Of a stretch of 25,941 bases of DNA, positions 2,309-10,234 are shown piece after piece (positions within the stretch are counted from its first letter, which is position 1; each line of letters begins with the position of its first letter). The position numbers and the translations under genes are program-made. The stretch comes from a virus. A model generated the notes under the pieces. The model had not been told where the DNA came from and did no database searches. It saw only the letters and a program-made list of their open reading frames with translations. Location of the stretch: the IMG/VR virus record IMGVR_UViG_3300007712_000078, positions 1-25,941 of that record; one strand, 5' to 3'.

Positions 2309-2316
2309 GATAAATA
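2309..2316 (+). promoter_or_regulatory. Late-type promoter GATAAATA
   Basis: GATAAATA lies 5 nt upstream of the ATG at 2322 and is one mismatch from the T4 late promoter TATAAATA. With T4-like spacing the transcript would begin at the ATG itself. No Shine-Dalgarno is present before this gene. Confidence 0.6.
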
Positions 2317-2321
2317 CTATT

Positions 2322-2660
2322 ATGAAAATGCGTGATATTATTACTGAATCTGTTGATATGAGCTTCTGGCGAGAACTGGACGCAAAGTTCAATCCAGATG
2401 CTTTGAAATATATCAACAAGGAAGAAGAGCGCCAAAAAAAGATGCAGGAAGTTCCTGGCACCCCTGTCTATACGGACGCTACCAAAGAAAAGCCTTCCTT
2501 TAACACCAAACCGAGCAAGGATGATATTAAAAGTTCTGGCTATAGGGGTCTTGTTGATACTCATGTTAAATCCGGTCATATAAGTAGAAAGAAAGGCCGA
2601 AAACTAGCTGGCGCCCGCTCTCCTATTGATCCTCAAAAATCTTTTCTACCGCATAGATAA
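2322..2660 (+). CDS. Unknown late protein with capsid-targeting-like N-terminus
   Basis: The only convincing plus-strand gene in the window; 112 residues from ATG 2322. The N-terminus MKMRDIITES resembles the T4 capsid-targeting signal MKTYQEFIAE, and its I-T-E followed by S fits the (I/L)xE cleavage site of T4-type prohead protease. The rest is hydrophilic and lysine/arginine rich, ending in a basic tail (SRKKGRKLAGARSPIDPQKS). A GATAAATA late-type promoter sits 5 nt upstream and there is no ribosome-binding site, so the mRNA may be leaderless. Its 3' end overlaps the convergent exonuclease gene by 38 nt. A packaged internal head protein is the best inference; no domain is recognised. Confidence 0.65.
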   Translation: MKMRDIITESVDMSFWRELDAKFNPDALKYINKEEERQKKMQEVPGTPVYTDATKEKPSFNTKPSKDDIKSSGYRGLVDTHVKSGHISRKKGRKLAGARSPIDPQKSFLPHR

Positions 2661-3396
2661 CCGAAGCTGAAAAGTCTCGGTCAAACTCGGGCAGATCTTC
2701 CTGTAAGCTATTCATATTCTCTAATGCCCATTGCCAATAGCTTAAAGGCACGTCTTGCATTTTCTGTCCCTTGTGCTTACCGAAAGGCATTGTATGAATG
2801 ATAATTGGCTCTTCTAACCAACCAATAATCTGTTCACCAATATTCTCGTCGGCCTTGACATGCCATTGTTCGATTGCATATTTTACAAGGTGTTCGAACA
2901 GAATGCTTGTTACATAAGCATCTTGATCGGCGCGATGAGCAATAACATCGTCATCAATCGGCAAATCTAGTGCATAACGCAGATAGCTGAGATTATATGC
3001 TTTGATGTTCGGATCGCTCTCGTAAAGCTTCTTCGCCATTCGCATCGTGCAGATAATGGGTGAATGATTTACACGGTGCTCCTTCAAAACCCTTTCGTCA
3101 TAGAAAGCGTTATGAGCAACCAGAAACGGTTTTTCATTCAATAGCCGCTCGACAGTTTCAAAATCATCTTCAAAGGATGGTTTATTCGACACCATACGAT
3201 TAGAGATGTATGTGACTGCAGAAACCTCCGGCGGAATAGGTTGCGGAGGTCGATAGAGTTGATTGTATGAGACTTCCCATTTATTGTCGTAATCGCAGGT
3301 AGCAAACTGAATCATTTGCGCGTCGCGAAAATCTAACGAAGTAGTTTCGGTATCGAATACTCGAAAGTCTTTTAAGGTCTGTGTAAGTTGTTCCAT
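2623..3396 (-). CDS. DEDDh 3'-5' exonuclease with C-terminal DUF3820-like segment
   Basis: 257 residues. The DnaQ/RNase T-type exonuclease motifs are present in order: D15 and E17 in DTETT (ExoI), D100 in AHNAFYDERVL (ExoII) and HRADQDA at 154-160 (ExoIII, catalytic H154 and D159). Such enzymes remove nucleotides from 3' ends with two metal ions. Residues about 203-225 (MPFGKHKGQKMQDVPLSYW) match the short DUF3820-type segment often fused to phage and bacterial exonucleases. The start lacks a Shine-Dalgarno and lies on a 20-bp near-palindrome (3395-3414). A role in phage DNA metabolism or repair is inferred; RNA as substrate is also possible. Confidence 0.88.
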   Translation of the reverse strand: MEQLTQTLKDFRVFDTETTSLDFRDAQMIQFATCDYDNKWEVSYNQLYRPPQPIPPEVSAVTYISNRMVSNKPSFEDDFETVERLLNEKPFLVAHNAFYDERVLKEHRVNHSPIICTMRMAKKLYESDPNIKAYNLSYLRYALDLPIDDDVIAHRADQDAYVTSILFEHLVKYAIEQWHVKADENIGEQIIGWLEEPIIIHTMPFGKHKGQKMQDVPLSYWQWALENMNSLQEDLPEFDRDFSASVIYAVEKIFEDQ

Positions 3397-3414
3397 GTCA
3401 TAAGTTTATGACAT
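3395..3414. repeat. Near-palindrome over the exonuclease start codon
   Basis: Arms ATGTCATAA and TTATGACAT (9 bp each) flank a 2-nt centre. The left arm includes the last two bases of the exonuclease start codon on the minus strand. It could be a repressor operator or an RNA hairpin hiding the start. The sequence is directly visible; the function is inferred. Confidence 0.5.
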
Positions 3415-3442
3415 TCTACAAAAGAAAGCAAATCAAGATGAA

Positions 3443-3625
3443 CTAGTATTGTCCACTAGTTTTGAACCAGCCTTCTCCTTTTAGAACAAAGTTGCCCGAT
3501 GTTATTAGTCTTACAAGGTCATCCTTGCTACACGCTGGGCATGTTATAAGAGGTTGCTCGGAAATTTTCTGATATTGATCGAAGCGATGATTACAGTGAT
3601 TACACTTATATGTATAGCTAATCAT
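3443..3625 (-). CDS. FmdB-type zinc ribbon protein
   Basis: 60 residues, beginning MISYTYKCNHCNHRFDQYQK. Two CxxC knuckles (C8/C11 and C29/C32) form a zinc ribbon, and the spacing plus the aromatic C-terminal GWFKTSGQY fit the FmdB family of small putative regulatory proteins. The family name comes from a proposed regulator of formamidase expression; the actual biochemical role is poorly defined. AAGGAGACACA precedes the ATG immediately after the stop of the upstream gene, so it is the third member of a cistron series with the two capsid-targeted-looking proteins. It might bind nucleic acid or another protein during late development. Confidence 0.75.
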   Translation of the reverse strand: MISYTYKCNHCNHRFDQYQKISEQPLITCPACSKDDLVRLITSGNFVLKGEGWFKTSGQY

Positions 3626-3634
3626 TGTGTCTCC

Positions 3635-4744
3635 TTATTTACCAACACCTACATATAAATCTTTGCCTTTCTTCTTTAGTCCCTTTGGAAGGTTATTTTC
3701 TGACACTAGGACGATGCGACGACCACCTTCGCCGCGAGCGTAAAAGATATTTGGGAATCCATACTGATCTACAGAACTGAAGTCTAAGACCTGTGATGCT
3801 CTGCGTCTACGAATGCGCAACCACAGGCTCCCTATATGATCTATAAAATCTGAGACCTTTATAAATTCGCCGCTGACTGTAATCGTATCTGTTCTGCCGC
3901 CGACGGCTTCCACTTCTACTTCCATAGGACCGACATACATGTAATCAATAGGCCCGCCCATCTTCTTTGTTCCTCGAAGAATCTGATCTAAATACTTATC
4001 TGGTACCTTGACAAAAACCTCAATGGCCTTGGATGGTGGGAACTTCTTGCCTTCTTGGTCTCCGAAGTTATCCTTATAAAACTTATAGGCTCGCTTAATG
4101 GCATTGCCTACAATATTAGGATCAATATTGAACAACCCGGCAATGCCGCCGCCAGCGATGGACGGTGCGCTTTCGCCTTTAGCACTTATAAGGTGAGTTT
4201 TACCACCTTTGGTATGTATAGCAAGATCGGCGTATGGTTCTTTACCTATCTCACTTACGCCTTCTACTTTGTTTGCTGAGATAATATTACGAAGATTTGC
4301 CTTACTGGTTTTAATGGTAACGGGTTGATGATTATTTTCAGCAACGGCATTGTTGATGGCATCAACTAGTCCTGCTTCTTGTCTCTCGCTTTCGGCTTTT
4401 CCGCCGCGCCTACCAAACTCTTTCGTTTTCTGTAGCTGTGTGAGTTTTATAGAATCTCCATCAACGGTTGGTAAGATGACGCTTTTTCGTTCGTTGCGGA
4501 ATTTATCTAAGACAGTACGCGGTTCACCGCCAGCTAACTTACGAAGAAATGCTCGATGTTCTTTTGGGTCTTCATAGCCTATAATGACTGTTTCTGATTC
4601 TGTGCCTTCCGGTGCTCGAGGATCTGGCACCAACTCAAACGGTTCTTGATTTTTGACTTTCTGAACGAATACTGACCAGTTGTCGCGTTTTGCCAACTGT
4701 TCAGGACTAAGAGCAACCTCTATTAGAAACTCTTGTAATCTCAT
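3635..4744 (-). CDS. Nuclease-like protein with capsid-targeting-like N-terminus
   Basis: 369 residues. The N-terminus MRLQEFLIEVALSPEQLAK resembles the T4 internal-protein capsid-targeting signal, with L-I-E as a plausible prohead protease site. A central block has features of a PD-(D/E)XK fold: E124 in a predicted helix (RQEAGLVDAINNA), D173 in YADLAIHT, a KGGK turn and K189 in LISAKGES, followed by a Gly-rich AGGGIAGL. The usual D/E before the Lys is replaced by Ser, so activity is uncertain. A basic patch (LRIRRRRAS, 309-317) could contact DNA. It starts 2 nt after the stop of the acidic protein and shares its late promoter. Inferred to be a virion-packaged DNA-acting protein. Confidence 0.6.
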   Translation of the reverse strand: MRLQEFLIEVALSPEQLAKRDNWSVFVQKVKNQEPFELVPDPRAPEGTESETVIIGYEDPKEHRAFLRKLAGGEPRTVLDKFRNERKSVILPTVDGDSIKLTQLQKTKEFGRRGGKAESERQEAGLVDAINNAVAENNHQPVTIKTSKANLRNIISANKVEGVSEIGKEPYADLAIHTKGGKTHLISAKGESAPSIAGGGIAGLFNIDPNIVGNAIKRAYKFYKDNFGDQEGKKFPPSKAIEVFVKVPDKYLDQILRGTKKMGGPIDYMYVGPMEVEVEAVGGRTDTITVSGEFIKVSDFIDHIGSLWLRIRRRRASQVLDFSSVDQYGFPNIFYARGEGGRRIVLVSENNLPKGLKKKGKDLYVGVGK

Positions 4745-4746
4745 TC

Positions 4747-5979
4747 TTAGTAGTCCTCAAGATCAATATTAATACCAAGCTCGTCAAAATCGAAGCTATC
4801 ATCTTCATAGTCTTCGATATCTTCGATGTCTACCATCTTGTCTTCATCGTCATCGTCGCTTTCAAAAATCTCGCCTTCCCCGTGACATTCTTCGCAACCC
4901 TCTCCCTCGCAAGATGGGCAGATGTTGGTAGCTGGTTCTTTCTCGTCATCGTCATCATCTAATCCCAGTCCGAAGCCGCCAAGAGGGTCGGTCTTTCGTA
5001 GATAATCTTCGTAGGCGCCTTCTCCTAGTAGCTCTTTGGTAACGTCATTGAGGGAGATGCTTTCCATTGGAATGCTGTCATACTCATCTACCAAATCATC
5101 CTCATCTTCGCGCATACGATCCATCTCTATCTCAGCGTCCCATTCATTATCGAATGGTTCGGATACTTGATCATAATCTCTATTCAACCAATGAATGATG
5201 TCCTCACGGGACAGGTAGCTCATATATCGTTTACCGCCCATGCCGTATAGCTCGTCGCCCATAACGGTAGATTCGTGCCAGTAGCTGCCGTCCTTCTCTA
5301 GACCAATGACAGCATATTCGTTGCCATTACCGATCGCTACGAAGAACTGCTCGGACTCTTCCTCACCGTCTTCTTCGGTTAGCTCGCCCTTCATGAGCTT
5401 CTTATGTTGTTCAGCAACATCTTTGCCCGGCTTAATGCCGTAGCGTCGTTTTAGCTCCTGCTTGATTAACCTCATTTGCAAACCACGCGCACTACCACGG
5501 GCGCCTTCTGGTTCGCCAGCGCCCTTGGCTAGGTTCTGAAGCTCTTGGTCGCTCATGTTTCTAACTCTTTTCTTCATCCCCTCAGGACCACCTGGACTCG
5601 AATCTTTATTCCAAGTCATAGCTTTATGAAACTTCTTTGCTACTTTGTCACCAAAATCTTCCGAGACCTGCTGTGCTTCGCCCTGAGAGTAAAGATTCTT
5701 ATATGTTAGTGGATCGTGCTGCTTTAGCCAATCGATAACATAAGGGCGTGCATCGAGATTAGGGTTCTCGTCTTCAAGTTTTTCGAGCATATCAAAAAGA
5801 TCATCATCACCATAAATGTGATAAATGTTATCTTTCATGTCCGCAGGACTAAGCTTTTCACCTCGTCCGAATAACAGACTGGCGAGTGCCTTGTAATCGC
5901 TTTCTTGCTCTGGTAGTGCCCAGGTTCCTTCAGTGATCTGAATGAACTTCTTCATTTCATGTAGTGTTTCTTTCGACAT
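4747..5979 (-). CDS. Large acidic protein with DnaJ-like zinc motif and capsid-targeting-like N-terminus
   Basis: 410 residues, from an ATG with AGGAG 6 nt upstream. Eight residues precede MKKFIQITEG, which resembles a T4 capsid-targeting peptide followed by an I-T-E cleavage site. The middle is helical and charged. The C-terminal third is extremely acidic, with runs of Asp/Glu, and contains a compact CPSCEGEGCEECHGEGE motif like a DnaJ zinc-binding repeat. A GATAAATA late-type promoter lies about 30 nt upstream. The polyacidic tail could mimic DNA or balance packaged basic proteins; this is inference. No known family is recognised, so 'internal head protein candidate' is as far as the sequence allows. 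Confidence 0.6.
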   Translation of the reverse strand: MSKETLHEMKKFIQITEGTWALPEQESDYKALASLLFGRGEKLSPADMKDNIYHIYGDDDLFDMLEKLEDENPNLDARPYVIDWLKQHDPLTYKNLYSQGEAQQVSEDFGDKVAKKFHKAMTWNKDSSPGGPEGMKKRVRNMSDQELQNLAKGAGEPEGARGSARGLQMRLIKQELKRRYGIKPGKDVAEQHKKLMKGELTEEDGEEESEQFFVAIGNGNEYAVIGLEKDGSYWHESTVMGDELYGMGGKRYMSYLSREDIIHWLNRDYDQVSEPFDNEWDAEIEMDRMREDEDDLVDEYDSIPMESISLNDVTKELLGEGAYEDYLRKTDPLGGFGLGLDDDDDEKEPATNICPSCEGEGCEECHGEGEIFESDDDDEDKMVDIEDIEDYEDDSFDFDELGINIDLEDY

Positions 5980-6009: not shown

Positions 6010-6017
6010 TATTTATC
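6010..6017 (-). promoter_or_regulatory. Late-type promoter GATAAATA
   Basis: The motif reads GATAAATAC on the minus strand in the gap upstream of the acidic protein gene (start 5979). The predicted leader is about 25-30 nt and contains the AGGAG ribosome site. It probably drives 5979 through 3443. Confidence 0.6.
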
Positions 6018-8248: not shown

Positions 8249-9712
8249 TTATAGGAATAGAAGCGCAAAAGCTTTAACAACCAAAAGCGGTGTCATAACT
8301 TTTCGAGACTGTTCCGACAGATTCGATGTAAACGACTGGCTACGAACATACTCTTCAGCATCATTCACAAGCTGATATGCCTGATTCATTAGCTCAGTGC
8401 GCTGCATAGAAGCCTGATTATACGCCTCTACCAACACAGCGTACTCTTCCATAGCGGCCTGATTCTGACGGAAGCAAGAGATTGTTGCTTGCTTCTGTAG
8501 ATCCGTATCAGCACGGGAGCCTTTTGTGTAATCAGGAACATTGCCTGTGCAATCAGAAACCACTGGAGGTTCTGGCGGAACCAACACGATGGTCTGAGAC
8601 TGTGCAAAACGAGCATCTGCCAACTGAAGAAGCTTGCAGTAATACTCCGCATCACCGACAGAAACACCTAGCTCTCTTGCCTGAAAGCTCATTCCACCTG
8701 AACATGCATTCGAGAAAACAGGCGCAACGCTGGCAACCGGCGCTCCACGGAAGTCTGTGCTAGCATCAACCTGAACATTTGTGGTTGAGCCTTCAACAAC
8801 CTGTGTCGAACCTTCAACATTCTGAGTTGAGAGGGCACCTGTGCCTTCTTCACCACCGAAGTTGTTATTGACAGTGACATCGCCTGTAGAAGCGGAAGAT
8901 GTATTATCTACAGCACCTTCTTCTACATTTAGAGAACCACCAGTTGCGGACGAATCACCACCGACCATGCTGTTTGTGTTTGCAACAGCACCTTCATCAA
9001 TAGATGCATTTCCACCCTGTGCAGTTACAGCACCTTCAGCGACATTTAGCGTATTGGTGCCAGTGTTGCTATTCTGTACTGCGCCTTCTGAAATAGTTGC
9101 ATTGCCACCTGCTACCGTGTTGGTGTTGCTATTCTGTACTGCGCCTTCTGAAATAGTTGCATTGCCACCTGCGCCACCAGCTCCACCTGCCGCGGTGTTT
9201 GTATTCTGGACTGCGCCTTCTGAGACAGAGAAGTTATTGGTGTTGGTGTTTGTGGCTGAATTTTGGACTGCACCCTCTGAGACGGTTAGCGTGTTGGTAC
9301 CTGTTACCGCTCCACTCTCCACGGTCACCGCACCACCCGTTGCAGATGATGTGCTTGGTCCTGTTGATAGTGTTGTATCACCAACATTTACCGAGCCTCC
9401 CGTAGCGTTGGCATTGCCGCCTGTTGCTGTTTGGGTTTGGTTCTGCTGCTGCTGTTGCTGGTTAGTTAGCGTGTTGGTATTGTCAACCGTTGCAGTGGCA
9501 TTTGCAGTTGCTTCGGCAATTCCAATTCCGACACCGTTGCCGCCGCCCTCGCCTTCGCCGCCGTTGCCATTTCCACCTGGTCCACAGGTGCTACCTTGAC
9601 AAACTTCAACTTTTTCGCCGTCAACAAATGTTGTACCGGCTGATACGATCTGAGATGATGTTACCGCAAGAACAACAAGAACTGCTGCTGCGACTTTAAT
9701 AAGAACCTTCAT
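8249..9712 (-). CDS. Secreted or surface protein with EGAV tandem repeats
   Basis: 487 residues. A classic signal peptide (MKVLIKVAAAVLVVLAVTSS...SA, cleavage after about A25) is followed by a Gly-rich stretch, a run of six Gln, and Asn/Thr/Gly-rich sequence. Residues 129-281 hold eight imperfect units built on (S/D/E)EGAVxN with alternating hydrophobic residues, suggesting a beta-helix, fibre or amyloid-like structure. The C-terminal half has six-Cys content overall and a helical region, ending in a hydrophobic tail (PLLVVKAFALLFL). AAGGAG precedes the ATG. A Sec signal is unusual for a virion protein, so it may act on the host surface. No family is recognised. Confidence 0.75.
   Translation of the reverse strand: MKVLIKVAAAVLVVLAVTSSQIVSAGTTFVDGEKVEVCQGSTCGPGGNGNGGEGEGGGNGVGIGIAEATANATATVDNTNTLTNQQQQQQNQTQTATGGNANATGGSVNVGDTTLSTGPSTSSATGGAVTVESGAVTGTNTLTVSEGAVQNSATNTNTNNFSVSEGAVQNTNTAAGGAGGAGGNATISEGAVQNSNTNTVAGGNATISEGAVQNSNTGTNTLNVAEGAVTAQGGNASIDEGAVANTNSMVGGDSSATGGSLNVEEGAVDNTSSASTGDVTVNNNFGGEEGTGALSTQNVEGSTQVVEGSTTNVQVDASTDFRGAPVASVAPVFSNACSGGMSFQARELGVSVGDAEYYCKLLQLADARFAQSQTIVLVPPEPPVVSDCTGNVPDYTKGSRADTDLQKQATISCFRQNQAAMEEYAVLVEAYNQASMQRTELMNQAYQLVNDAEEYVRSQSFTSNLSEQSRKVMTPLLVVKAFALLFL
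8870..9328 (-). repeat. Tandem coding repeats of the EGAV protein
   Basis: Eight imperfect units of roughly 14-25 codons. Two neighbouring units share 50 identical nucleotides (9063-9112 and 9123-9172) with a 60-nt period, indicating recent duplication and a likely site of copy-number change. Confidence 0.85.
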
Positions 9713-9949: not shown

Positions 9950-10234
9950 TTAGTACAGGCGTTTACTTTTCTGTTGCTCTTCTAAAGTCTTAAGCCATCG
10001 CTTACGAGCAATCGCCTTCTCCTTCTTTCTGCGCACAGATGGCTTTTCATAAAACTCTCTTTCTCGCAGTTCACGAAGAATGCCAGAATCTTGGACCTTC
10101 TTGTTAAAAATCTTCATAGCCTTTTCAAAACCAAATGGGCGATCCTGAACTTCAACCTTAAGCCCTGGCACTAGATCACGAGGATTAAATTCATTCTTGC
10201 CTCGGTGTGTGTATCTTTCTTTTCTACTCATCAT
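9950..10234 (-). CDS. rpsU: Ribosomal protein bS21
   Basis: 94 residues. The bS21 signature is strong: [20 protein letters not shown], then [20 protein letters not shown] and a final RLY, as in E. coli S21 (REFYEKP ... RLY). A basic N-terminal extension of about 25 residues precedes the core. bS21 binds the 30S platform near the anti-Shine-Dalgarno end of 16S rRNA and influences initiation on structured or unusual mRNAs. Phage copies are known from aquatic phages and are proposed to replace the host protein and favour phage mRNAs. The ATG overlaps the end of clpX by 11 nt, so the two are translationally coupled. A second in-frame ATG directly follows. Confidence 0.93.

Follow-up and report, generated by a model that had tools for sequence, protein, structure and literature searches.

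Two proteins encoded in the viral DNA analysed here, a putative nuclease of 369 residues and a basic protein of 112 residues, are probably late, head-bound cargo that would be docked by an N-terminal tag, cut by a gp21-type protease and leave with the DNA. The DNA, hereafter the window, is a 25,941-nucleotide fragment (IMG/VR record IMGVR_UViG_3300007712_000078); its twin contig is 53 kb long, with 91 predicted genes. In the proposed mechanism, the first nine residues of either protein would dock it on the prohead core as a capsid-targeting sequence, a gp21-type S77 prohead protease would cut after the glutamate to give mature cargo inside the head, and this would exit the head together with the DNA. 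The nuclease-like cargo would then most likely act on host or competitor DNA inside the cell. From sequence comparison we infer that the window's proteins are packaged, cut and injected, and likewise that the nuclease is active, and on what target. Capsid targeting with gp21-type processing would best explain both proteins, in a T4-type, PA5oct-like large myovirus; it is favoured because the tag is modular in the nuclease and because tag and promoter are conserved in the 112-residue protein.

A first-pass annotation had listed three N-termini, and all are present where it placed them: MKMRDIITE/S (gene at positions 2322–2660, forward strand), MRLQEFLIE/V (3635–4744, reverse strand) and MKKFIQITE/G (4747–5979, reverse strand), with the slash marking the predicted cut. 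Its reading of the three as T4-like packaged and processed proteins is partly right: packaging and processing are favoured for the 369- and 112-residue proteins, whereas the N-terminal argument fails for the third, a protein of 410 residues.

T4 tag rules and the chance level of the pattern

The T4 proteins IPI, IPII, IPIII and Alt, all cut by gp21, have in common a short propeptide, about 10–20 residues long, ending in (L/I)xE, with hydrophobic targeting positions; the N-terminus of IPIII we take to be MKTYQEFIAE/A. In IPIII, targeting depends on residues 4 and 7 and processing on residues 8 and 10, and a T4 tag with Asp at position 10 still targets without being processed (PMC9026906). When equivalent positions are assigned by counting back from the cut glutamate, the 369- and 112-residue proteins are hydrophobic at the equivalents of positions 4, 7 and 8, and both combine hydrophobic targeting positions with a propeptide ending in (L/I)xE; the 410-residue protein, with Lys and Gln at the two targeting positions, does not. 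Features in common with the T4 internal proteins are small basic cargo, both candidates being basic, a late promoter and, in relatives of the window, a gp21-type protease. They differ from the T4 proteins in that the mature parts have no sequence relation, and in that the cargo would include a restriction-endonuclease-like nuclease, the core of which also occurs untagged in related phages.

Taken alone, without homologue comparison, the pattern is barely above chance. Its loose form, (L/I)xE at residues 7–12, is common (29 of the 270 PA5oct genes tested) and shows no excess among PA5oct proteins detected by mass spectrometry (MS), so it was dropped as evidence. Beyond the window, where the first-pass annotation had proposed to look for the same motif, the T4-anchored form scores 3 hits among the twin contig's 91 genes, where shuffled sequences give 0.59 (about fivefold, P = 0.02), but the excess over internal Met sites is not significant (P = 0.14). 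The question of the tag was decided by comparison with homologues.

A modular tag in a nuclease-like protein family

The 369-residue protein (pI 9.3) belongs to a family found on at least 206 IMG/VR contigs. Its predicted capsid-targeting sequence, MRLQEFLIE, encoded at 4718–4744 on the reverse strand and with a predicted cut before Val10 that would leave a mature protein of 360 residues, is missing from the homologues of PA5oct and L005, which begin at the residue just behind the predicted cut; in the nucleases of L006–L014, M[KQ]A[IT]QFLQE stands in its place. Untagged members of the family begin MAGxxxERQE and tagged ones, for example, MKTYKEFILE/AGxxxERQE, with the tag exactly in place of the Met. 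The propeptide is separable from the mature domain, homologues beginning at or adjoining the cut. Topologies that unite the tagged forms in one clade are rejected (p-AU = 9.5e-65), and at least three changes are needed. The tag is thus a modular element of the nuclease, gained or lost across related viruses, and this family comparison suggests that phages may repeatedly turn the nuclease into cargo delivered with their DNA. The PA5oct homologue, EST35_0229 (36.8% identical over residues 12–353), differs from the window's protein in having no tag, in sitting in another gene cluster and in carrying no MS note.

The nuclease core, E120–G190 (ERQE ... EPYAD ... SAKG; 4175–4387, reverse strand), contains eight residues, E120, Q122, E123, E169, D173, S187, K189 and G190, that are invariant in 74 of 74 family sequences. 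In S187xK189, the serine stands where Asp or Glu precedes xK in the canonical (D/E)xK. The best PDB folds for the predicted model (pLDDT 75) are the monomeric type II restriction endonucleases MspI and HinP1I; these matches are weak, with E-values of 0.0085–0.015 (above 0.001) and TM-scores of 0.2–0.37, and a sequence profile of the nuclease compared with the PDB gave no meaningful match. The likeness presumably consists in acidic residues together with a (not D/E)xK replacing the canonical (D/E)xK, the HinP1I active-site comparison being drawn from the fold match. In contrast to MspI and HinP1I, the protein has no identified methyltransferase partner in the window. The likeness in PD-(D/E)xK-type residues is real, and the protein, already described as nuclease-like from its sequence, is a putative restriction-endonuclease-like nuclease. 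As a general reason why a packaged nuclease would spare its own genome, 7-deazaguanine DNA protection was rejected, since a QueC match passing the cut-off is present in no more than 1 of 12 nuclease-bearing records.

The 112-residue protein and the late promoters

The 112-residue protein (pI 9.8), a candidate internal head protein, is encoded on the opposite strand, between the genes for a polIII-type exonuclease and clpP. The gene is syntenic in L243 and in PA5oct, where its counterpart EST35_0271 (about 31–34% identical at the protein level) has the equal place, late promoter and tag, and carries no ESI-MS/MS note. The predicted targeting sequence, MKMRDIITE (2322–2348, forward strand; cut before Ser10), is kept in all homologues, with the consensus MK[MI][RK][DE]II[TL]E; across the three lineages (window, PA5oct and L243), 7 to 8 of its 9 residues are identical or similar. 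A T4-type late promoter box (GATAAATACTATT, ATAAATA; 2310–2316, forward strand) lies 12 bp upstream of the ATG, and the spacing is equal in the window, EST35_0271 and L243.

Late-type promoters had been placed beside all three genes. They do adjoin the 112-residue gene and the 410-residue gene (GATAAATACT; 6010–6016, reverse strand), but the nuclease gene, which starts directly after the stop of the 410-residue gene, has none of its own; the box upstream of its neighbour would serve it too. On the main coding strand, 10 ATAAATA late-type sites are present against 2.6 expected.

Protease and tagged proteins in related phages

The first-pass annotation had made a gp21-type protease a check on its reading. 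An S77 prohead protease of this type is encoded in 8 of 8 tested nuclease-bearing contigs longer than 100 kb, and also in PA5oct, Sf-FS3, X1 and G009, so the relatives do not lack a T4-type protease. Looking for S77 and gp23 in the window and its twin, both fragments, gave nothing usable, the twin being too short to show S77; nor was S77 seen in G004 (117 kb) or G022 (119 kb), both of them perhaps also incomplete.

DUF6267 neighbours in the relatives present 46 distinct tag N-termini that fit the T4 determinants. All have Phe, Tyr or Leu at T4 position 4, Leu or Ile at position 8 and Glu at position 10, and 39 of the 46 have Phe or Tyr at position 7, matching the residues important in T4 IPIII (PMC9026906). 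The glutamate at the cut is invariant in these and in 10 nuclease tags, with a small residue next in most. The DUF6267 protein of Methylophilales phage Melnitz begins MLTLINFSKYITE/D, and its upstream neighbour begins MQGFKTFLSE/A. Sf-FS3 encodes a tagged cytidylyltransferase together with a nuclease that has no tag.

In PA5oct, the tagged proteins EST35_0150 (MKINDIITE/G), encoded between the portal and protease genes, and EST35_0238 (MKIKDILVE/S) have ESI-MS/MS notes; the list includes cytosolic enzymes and is therefore not a clean virion list. Cytidylyltransferase/NMNAT-like proteins with N-termini like the window's tags (MRFRQFIIE/A and MKNFSSFLTE/A) belong to cyanophages S-SZBM1 and S-CREM2; the two reports place the tagged cytidylyltransferase in virions and, in the passages available, draw no link between it and capsid targeting (PMC9146016, PMC10665884). 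It is a different enzyme from the window's nuclease; in S-SZBM1 its gene adjoins DUF6267. Tagged proteins 191 and 192 of S-SZBM1 were not detected in virions, and genome-wide the relation of tag to MS detection is not significant in this phage, where tags are few and the proteome, at 30 proteins, is shallow.

The acidic 410-residue protein

The protein encoded directly upstream of the nuclease gene has a pI of 4.25. Its N-terminal stretch, MSKETLHEMKKFIQITE (5929–5979, reverse strand), contains ITE/G and misfits the T4 targeting positions; a strong Shine-Dalgarno sequence, TAGGAGTTACAG-ATG, fits an upstream Met of the frame, from which the cut would fall after residue 17. The earlier description as polyacidic with a zinc motif holds: 41% of the last 90 residues are Asp or Glu, and the acidic C-terminus contains the zinc-type motif CPSCEGEGCEEC (4885–4920, reverse strand), as read from the translation. 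The counterpart in the twin contig has 492 residues, through an 82-residue module, and L019 has two modules in common with the window's protein; searches of phages, PA5oct, G004, G007 and G022 gave no further homologues. A modular protein that shares modules with it has, among its own relatives, one MS-detected virion protein. This acidic, modular protein of 410 residues may be associated with the head, but its N-terminus is poor evidence of such a role.

Alternative explanations and wider meaning

It is unlikely that the (L/I)xE matches arose by chance in cytoplasmic late or DNA-metabolism proteins. Chance would fit the lack of enrichment of the loose pattern in MS-detected PA5oct proteins, the anchored pattern's failure to exceed internal Met sites significantly and the undetected PA5oct nuclease; but tags are added precisely at the start of the core in several lineages, T4-defined positions are conserved in nuclease and DUF6267 tags alike, and an untagged nuclease that escapes detection is what a targeting tag predicts. 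A role for the tagged proteins as structural helpers of prohead assembly with a nuclease-like fold, comparable to T4 gp67, gp68 or IPIII, instead of injected effectors, also seems improbable. EST35_0150, with its gene position and MS note, would suit such a role, and loss of IPIII lowers head assembly in T4 (PMC9026906); however, all catalytic-type residues are kept throughout the 74 nuclease sequences, the existence of untagged forms implies a core function independent of the head, and the window's candidate genes lie outside the head cluster.

We give little credence to the N-terminal extension serving another purpose, such as docking to replication or packaging machinery, with the glutamate left uncut. 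Cleavage of family members is a prediction, and the Asp variant of T4 provides a precedent for docking without processing; against this stand the invariance of the glutamate, mostly before a small residue, and the fact that cutting would restore the AG N-terminus of untagged forms. Capsid targeting followed by processing is thus the reading we prefer, and the candidate cargo proteins could form the injected early-takeover set that had been proposed.

More tentatively, T4-type marine and jumbo phages may repeatedly graft a ten-residue capsid-entry tag onto one family of restriction-like nucleases, often beside a tagged ligase-like nucleotidyltransferase (DUF6267), so that enzymes that cut DNA and enzymes that join DNA or RNA would enter the cell along with the genome at the very start of infection. 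Few T4-type phages, all of them models, have had their injected enzymes identified. Being short, modular and conserved at the four T4-defined positions, the tag can be recognised by comparing tagged and untagged homologues, and such recognition would allow the proteins injected by uncultured T4-type phages to be predicted and then tested. A restriction-like nuclease packaged in advance would be unusual among injected effectors, bearing on host DNA degradation and on phage–phage competition.

Genomic setting

By gene order, the window phage is PA5oct-like and a candidate member of the Arenbergviridae. Window and PA5oct have in common the order polIII exonuclease, 112-residue gene, clpP and mazG, as well as the ClpX-S21-Hsp20-ClpS and QueD-GCH-TS blocks. 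GTP cyclohydrolase and QueD are both encoded in the window.

Genomic context and N-terminal sequences

The 25.9-kb window is a virus fragment in IMG/VR; a 53-kb contig from sample 3300007535 (the twin contig) is 99.5–99.9% identical across nearly all of it. The window follows the gene order of the Pseudomonas jumbo phage PA5oct (Arenbergviridae) from about 165 to 184 kb: metallophosphoesterase, thymidylate synthase, GTP cyclohydrolase, QueD, ClpX and S21, then Hsp20, ClpS, a polIII-type exonuclease, a small opposite-strand gene, ClpP and MazG. This order points to a T4-type large myovirus, with the candidate cargo genes of the window located outside any head-gene cluster. A 94-aa protein of the window (9950–10234, minus strand) takes the place of the PA5oct gene that bears the annotation 30S ribosomal protein S21.

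Packaging of T4 IPIII needs only the first ten residues, 4 and 7 being important for targeting and 8 and 10 for processing (PMC9026906). The first-pass annotation had proposed T4-like N-termini for three proteins. All three sequences are present; agreement with the T4 positions extends to the 369-aa protein (3635–4744, minus strand) and the 112-aa protein (2322–2660, plus strand), but not to the 410-aa protein (4747–5979, minus strand). Aligned on the Glu at the cut, MRLQEFLIE and MKMRDIITE are hydrophobic at the equivalents of T4 residues 4, 7 and 8, whereas in MSKETLHEMKKFIQITE of the 410-aa protein K and Q occupy the targeting positions. Its Shine-Dalgarno sequence, TAGGAG, favours the upstream Met as start. 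The N-terminal argument for capsid targeting does not hold for the 410-aa protein. The bare pattern is weak evidence for a tag, because (L/I)xE in residues 7–12 is equally frequent in PA5oct proteins detected by mass spectrometry (10/93) and undetected (19/177); the T4-anchored pattern has three matches among 91 twin-contig genes, where shuffles give 0.59.

The predicted nuclease family and its modular candidate tag

Homologues of the 369-aa protein occur in 11 PA5oct-like phage records, Sf-FS3, Xanthomonas phage X1 and at least 206 IMG/VR contigs. Those of PA5oct and of locus L005 start where the window's predicted cut (here a slash) falls: MRLQEFLIE/VALSPEQLAKRDNW in the window versus MAHLSKTQLLKRNNW and MATLSVRDLTKRCNW, respectively. 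A second set (loci L006–L014, 32–34% identity) carries the tag M[KQ]A[IT]QFLQE/[AG]SLT. Short forms start with MAG or MSG, then xxxERQE, in 39 distinct proteins; tagged short forms have MKTYKEFILE/AG, MKSFKEYITE/AG, MQSFKNYLVE/AG or MRFKSFIVE/AG ahead of the same ERQE. The tag thus takes the place of the initiator Met only, and the predicted cut after Glu would yield an AG N-terminus, as Met removal would on the untagged form. A tree of 74 nuclease cores requires at least three tag changes, gain and loss being indistinguishable on it. A single tagged clade is rejected (p-AU 9.5e-65), as is joining the window to the L006 lineage (p 8e-4); the window's branch is long and its placement unsure.

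Residues E120, Q122, E123, E169, D173, S187, K189 and G190 are invariant in 74/74 sequences. Modelling with AlphaFold2 on 8 sequences (pLDDT 75) gave a structure with MspI (E 0.0085) and HinP1I (E 0.015) as best PDB matches; its BFVD matches are uncharacterised proteins from cyanophages and Stenotrophomonas phages. The protein, described earlier as nuclease-like, is best read as a restriction-endonuclease-like nuclease of putative activity.

The 112-aa protein

The 112-aa protein is basic (pI 9.8), like the T4 internal proteins. It is 31–34% identical to PA5oct EST35_0271, both genes lying on the opposite strand between exonuclease and clpP, and a 43% identical homologue occupies the same place on an IMG/VR contig of 119 kb. 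MK[MI][RK][DE]II[TL]E is common to all three, and its codons come immediately after a late promoter of T4 type (GATAAATACTATTATGAAAAT, GATAAATATTGTTATGAAAAT and GATAAATACTATTATGAAAAT in window, PA5oct and 119-kb contig). EST35_0271 (MK797984 179881–180267, minus strand) is probably annotated with a wrong start: its MINIV runs over the promoter box, and translation likely begins further inside, at the Met of MKIKEIILE. In the third lineage that carries a homologue of the 112-aa protein (L243), a further opposite-strand protein (4159–4728, plus strand) lies between the exonuclease and a zinc-ribbon gene; its start, MRAIELLKE/E, resembles the MKAIQFLQE tag.

Tagged neighbours, prohead protease and virion proteomes

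DUF6267 (PF19782; motifs KWDG, EGxV and KLV; weak fold match to RNA ligases) is encoded near the short nuclease in many contigs. Among 46 distinct N-termini, a set picked for carrying the tag (which a few DUF6267 proteins lack), T4 positions 4, 8 and 10 are F/Y/L, L/I and E in 46/46, and position 7 is F or Y in 39/46; the Pfam domain begins behind the tag. Adjoining genes with tag-like N-termini (MMRFKEYISE/Q, MMQSFKEFLLE/N, MSKLTEFKRYLTE/A, MVKFKNHLISE/S, MRLNEFDGSMRITE/G, MKINEVVTIKE/D) occur on three contigs, at G010 40–53 kb (L204), G011 70–79 kb (L214) and G004 79–86 kb (L221–L222), possibly internal-protein cassettes of marine T4-type phages.

The gp21-type (S77) protease, named as a check in the first-pass annotation, was found in part of the relatives: in PA5oct, Sf-FS3, X1, contig G009 and 8/8 tested contigs above 100 kb with the nuclease, with none seen in contigs G004 (117 kb) and G022 (119 kb). 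According to published proteomes of virions (PMC9146016, PMC10665884), the cytidylyltransferases of S-SZBM1 (MRFRQFIIE/A, adjoining DUF6267) and S-CREM2 (MKNFSSFLTE/A) are detected, while the untagged DUF6267 of S-SZBM1 went undetected, as did the neighbour upstream of it. Two further tagged S-SZBM1 proteins also went undetected, which counts against the tag.

For the window's phage all results are at sequence level; capsid targeting and gp21-type processing are the best explanation for the 369-aa and 112-aa proteins, and quite probable for each. Their injection, and the predicted nuclease action, would follow the example of T4, where enzymes fused to a capsid-targeting sequence (CTS), among them nucleases, have been packaged and delivered (PMC9026906).

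The 410-aa protein and other features of the window

The 410-aa protein is acidic (pI 4.25), and its tail (41% D/E, with CPSCEGEGCEEC) bears out the polyacidic character described earlier. Its only full-length relative, in the twin contig, has 492 aa through an 82-aa module; this in-frame module (twin contig 28909–29173) is absent at window 5354–5372, the rest being near-identical. The 82-aa and KFHKAMTW modules recur in a 659-aa modular protein (locus L019), which has one module in common with Sf-FS3 167; the latter has another in common with S-SZBM1_139, a virion protein by mass spectrometry. Through this thin chain, a head role for the 410-aa protein is possible.

A 487-aa protein without a family match (8249–9712, minus strand) starts much like a signal peptide and contains repeats rich in N, T and G (EGAVQNSNT..., EGAVQNTNT...). 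The window begins (1–127) within an array of three tandem paralogous genes (about 90–109 aa, ...EWLEFLKEKVEPNFPGI...) of the twin contig (22691–23646), part of which it lacks.
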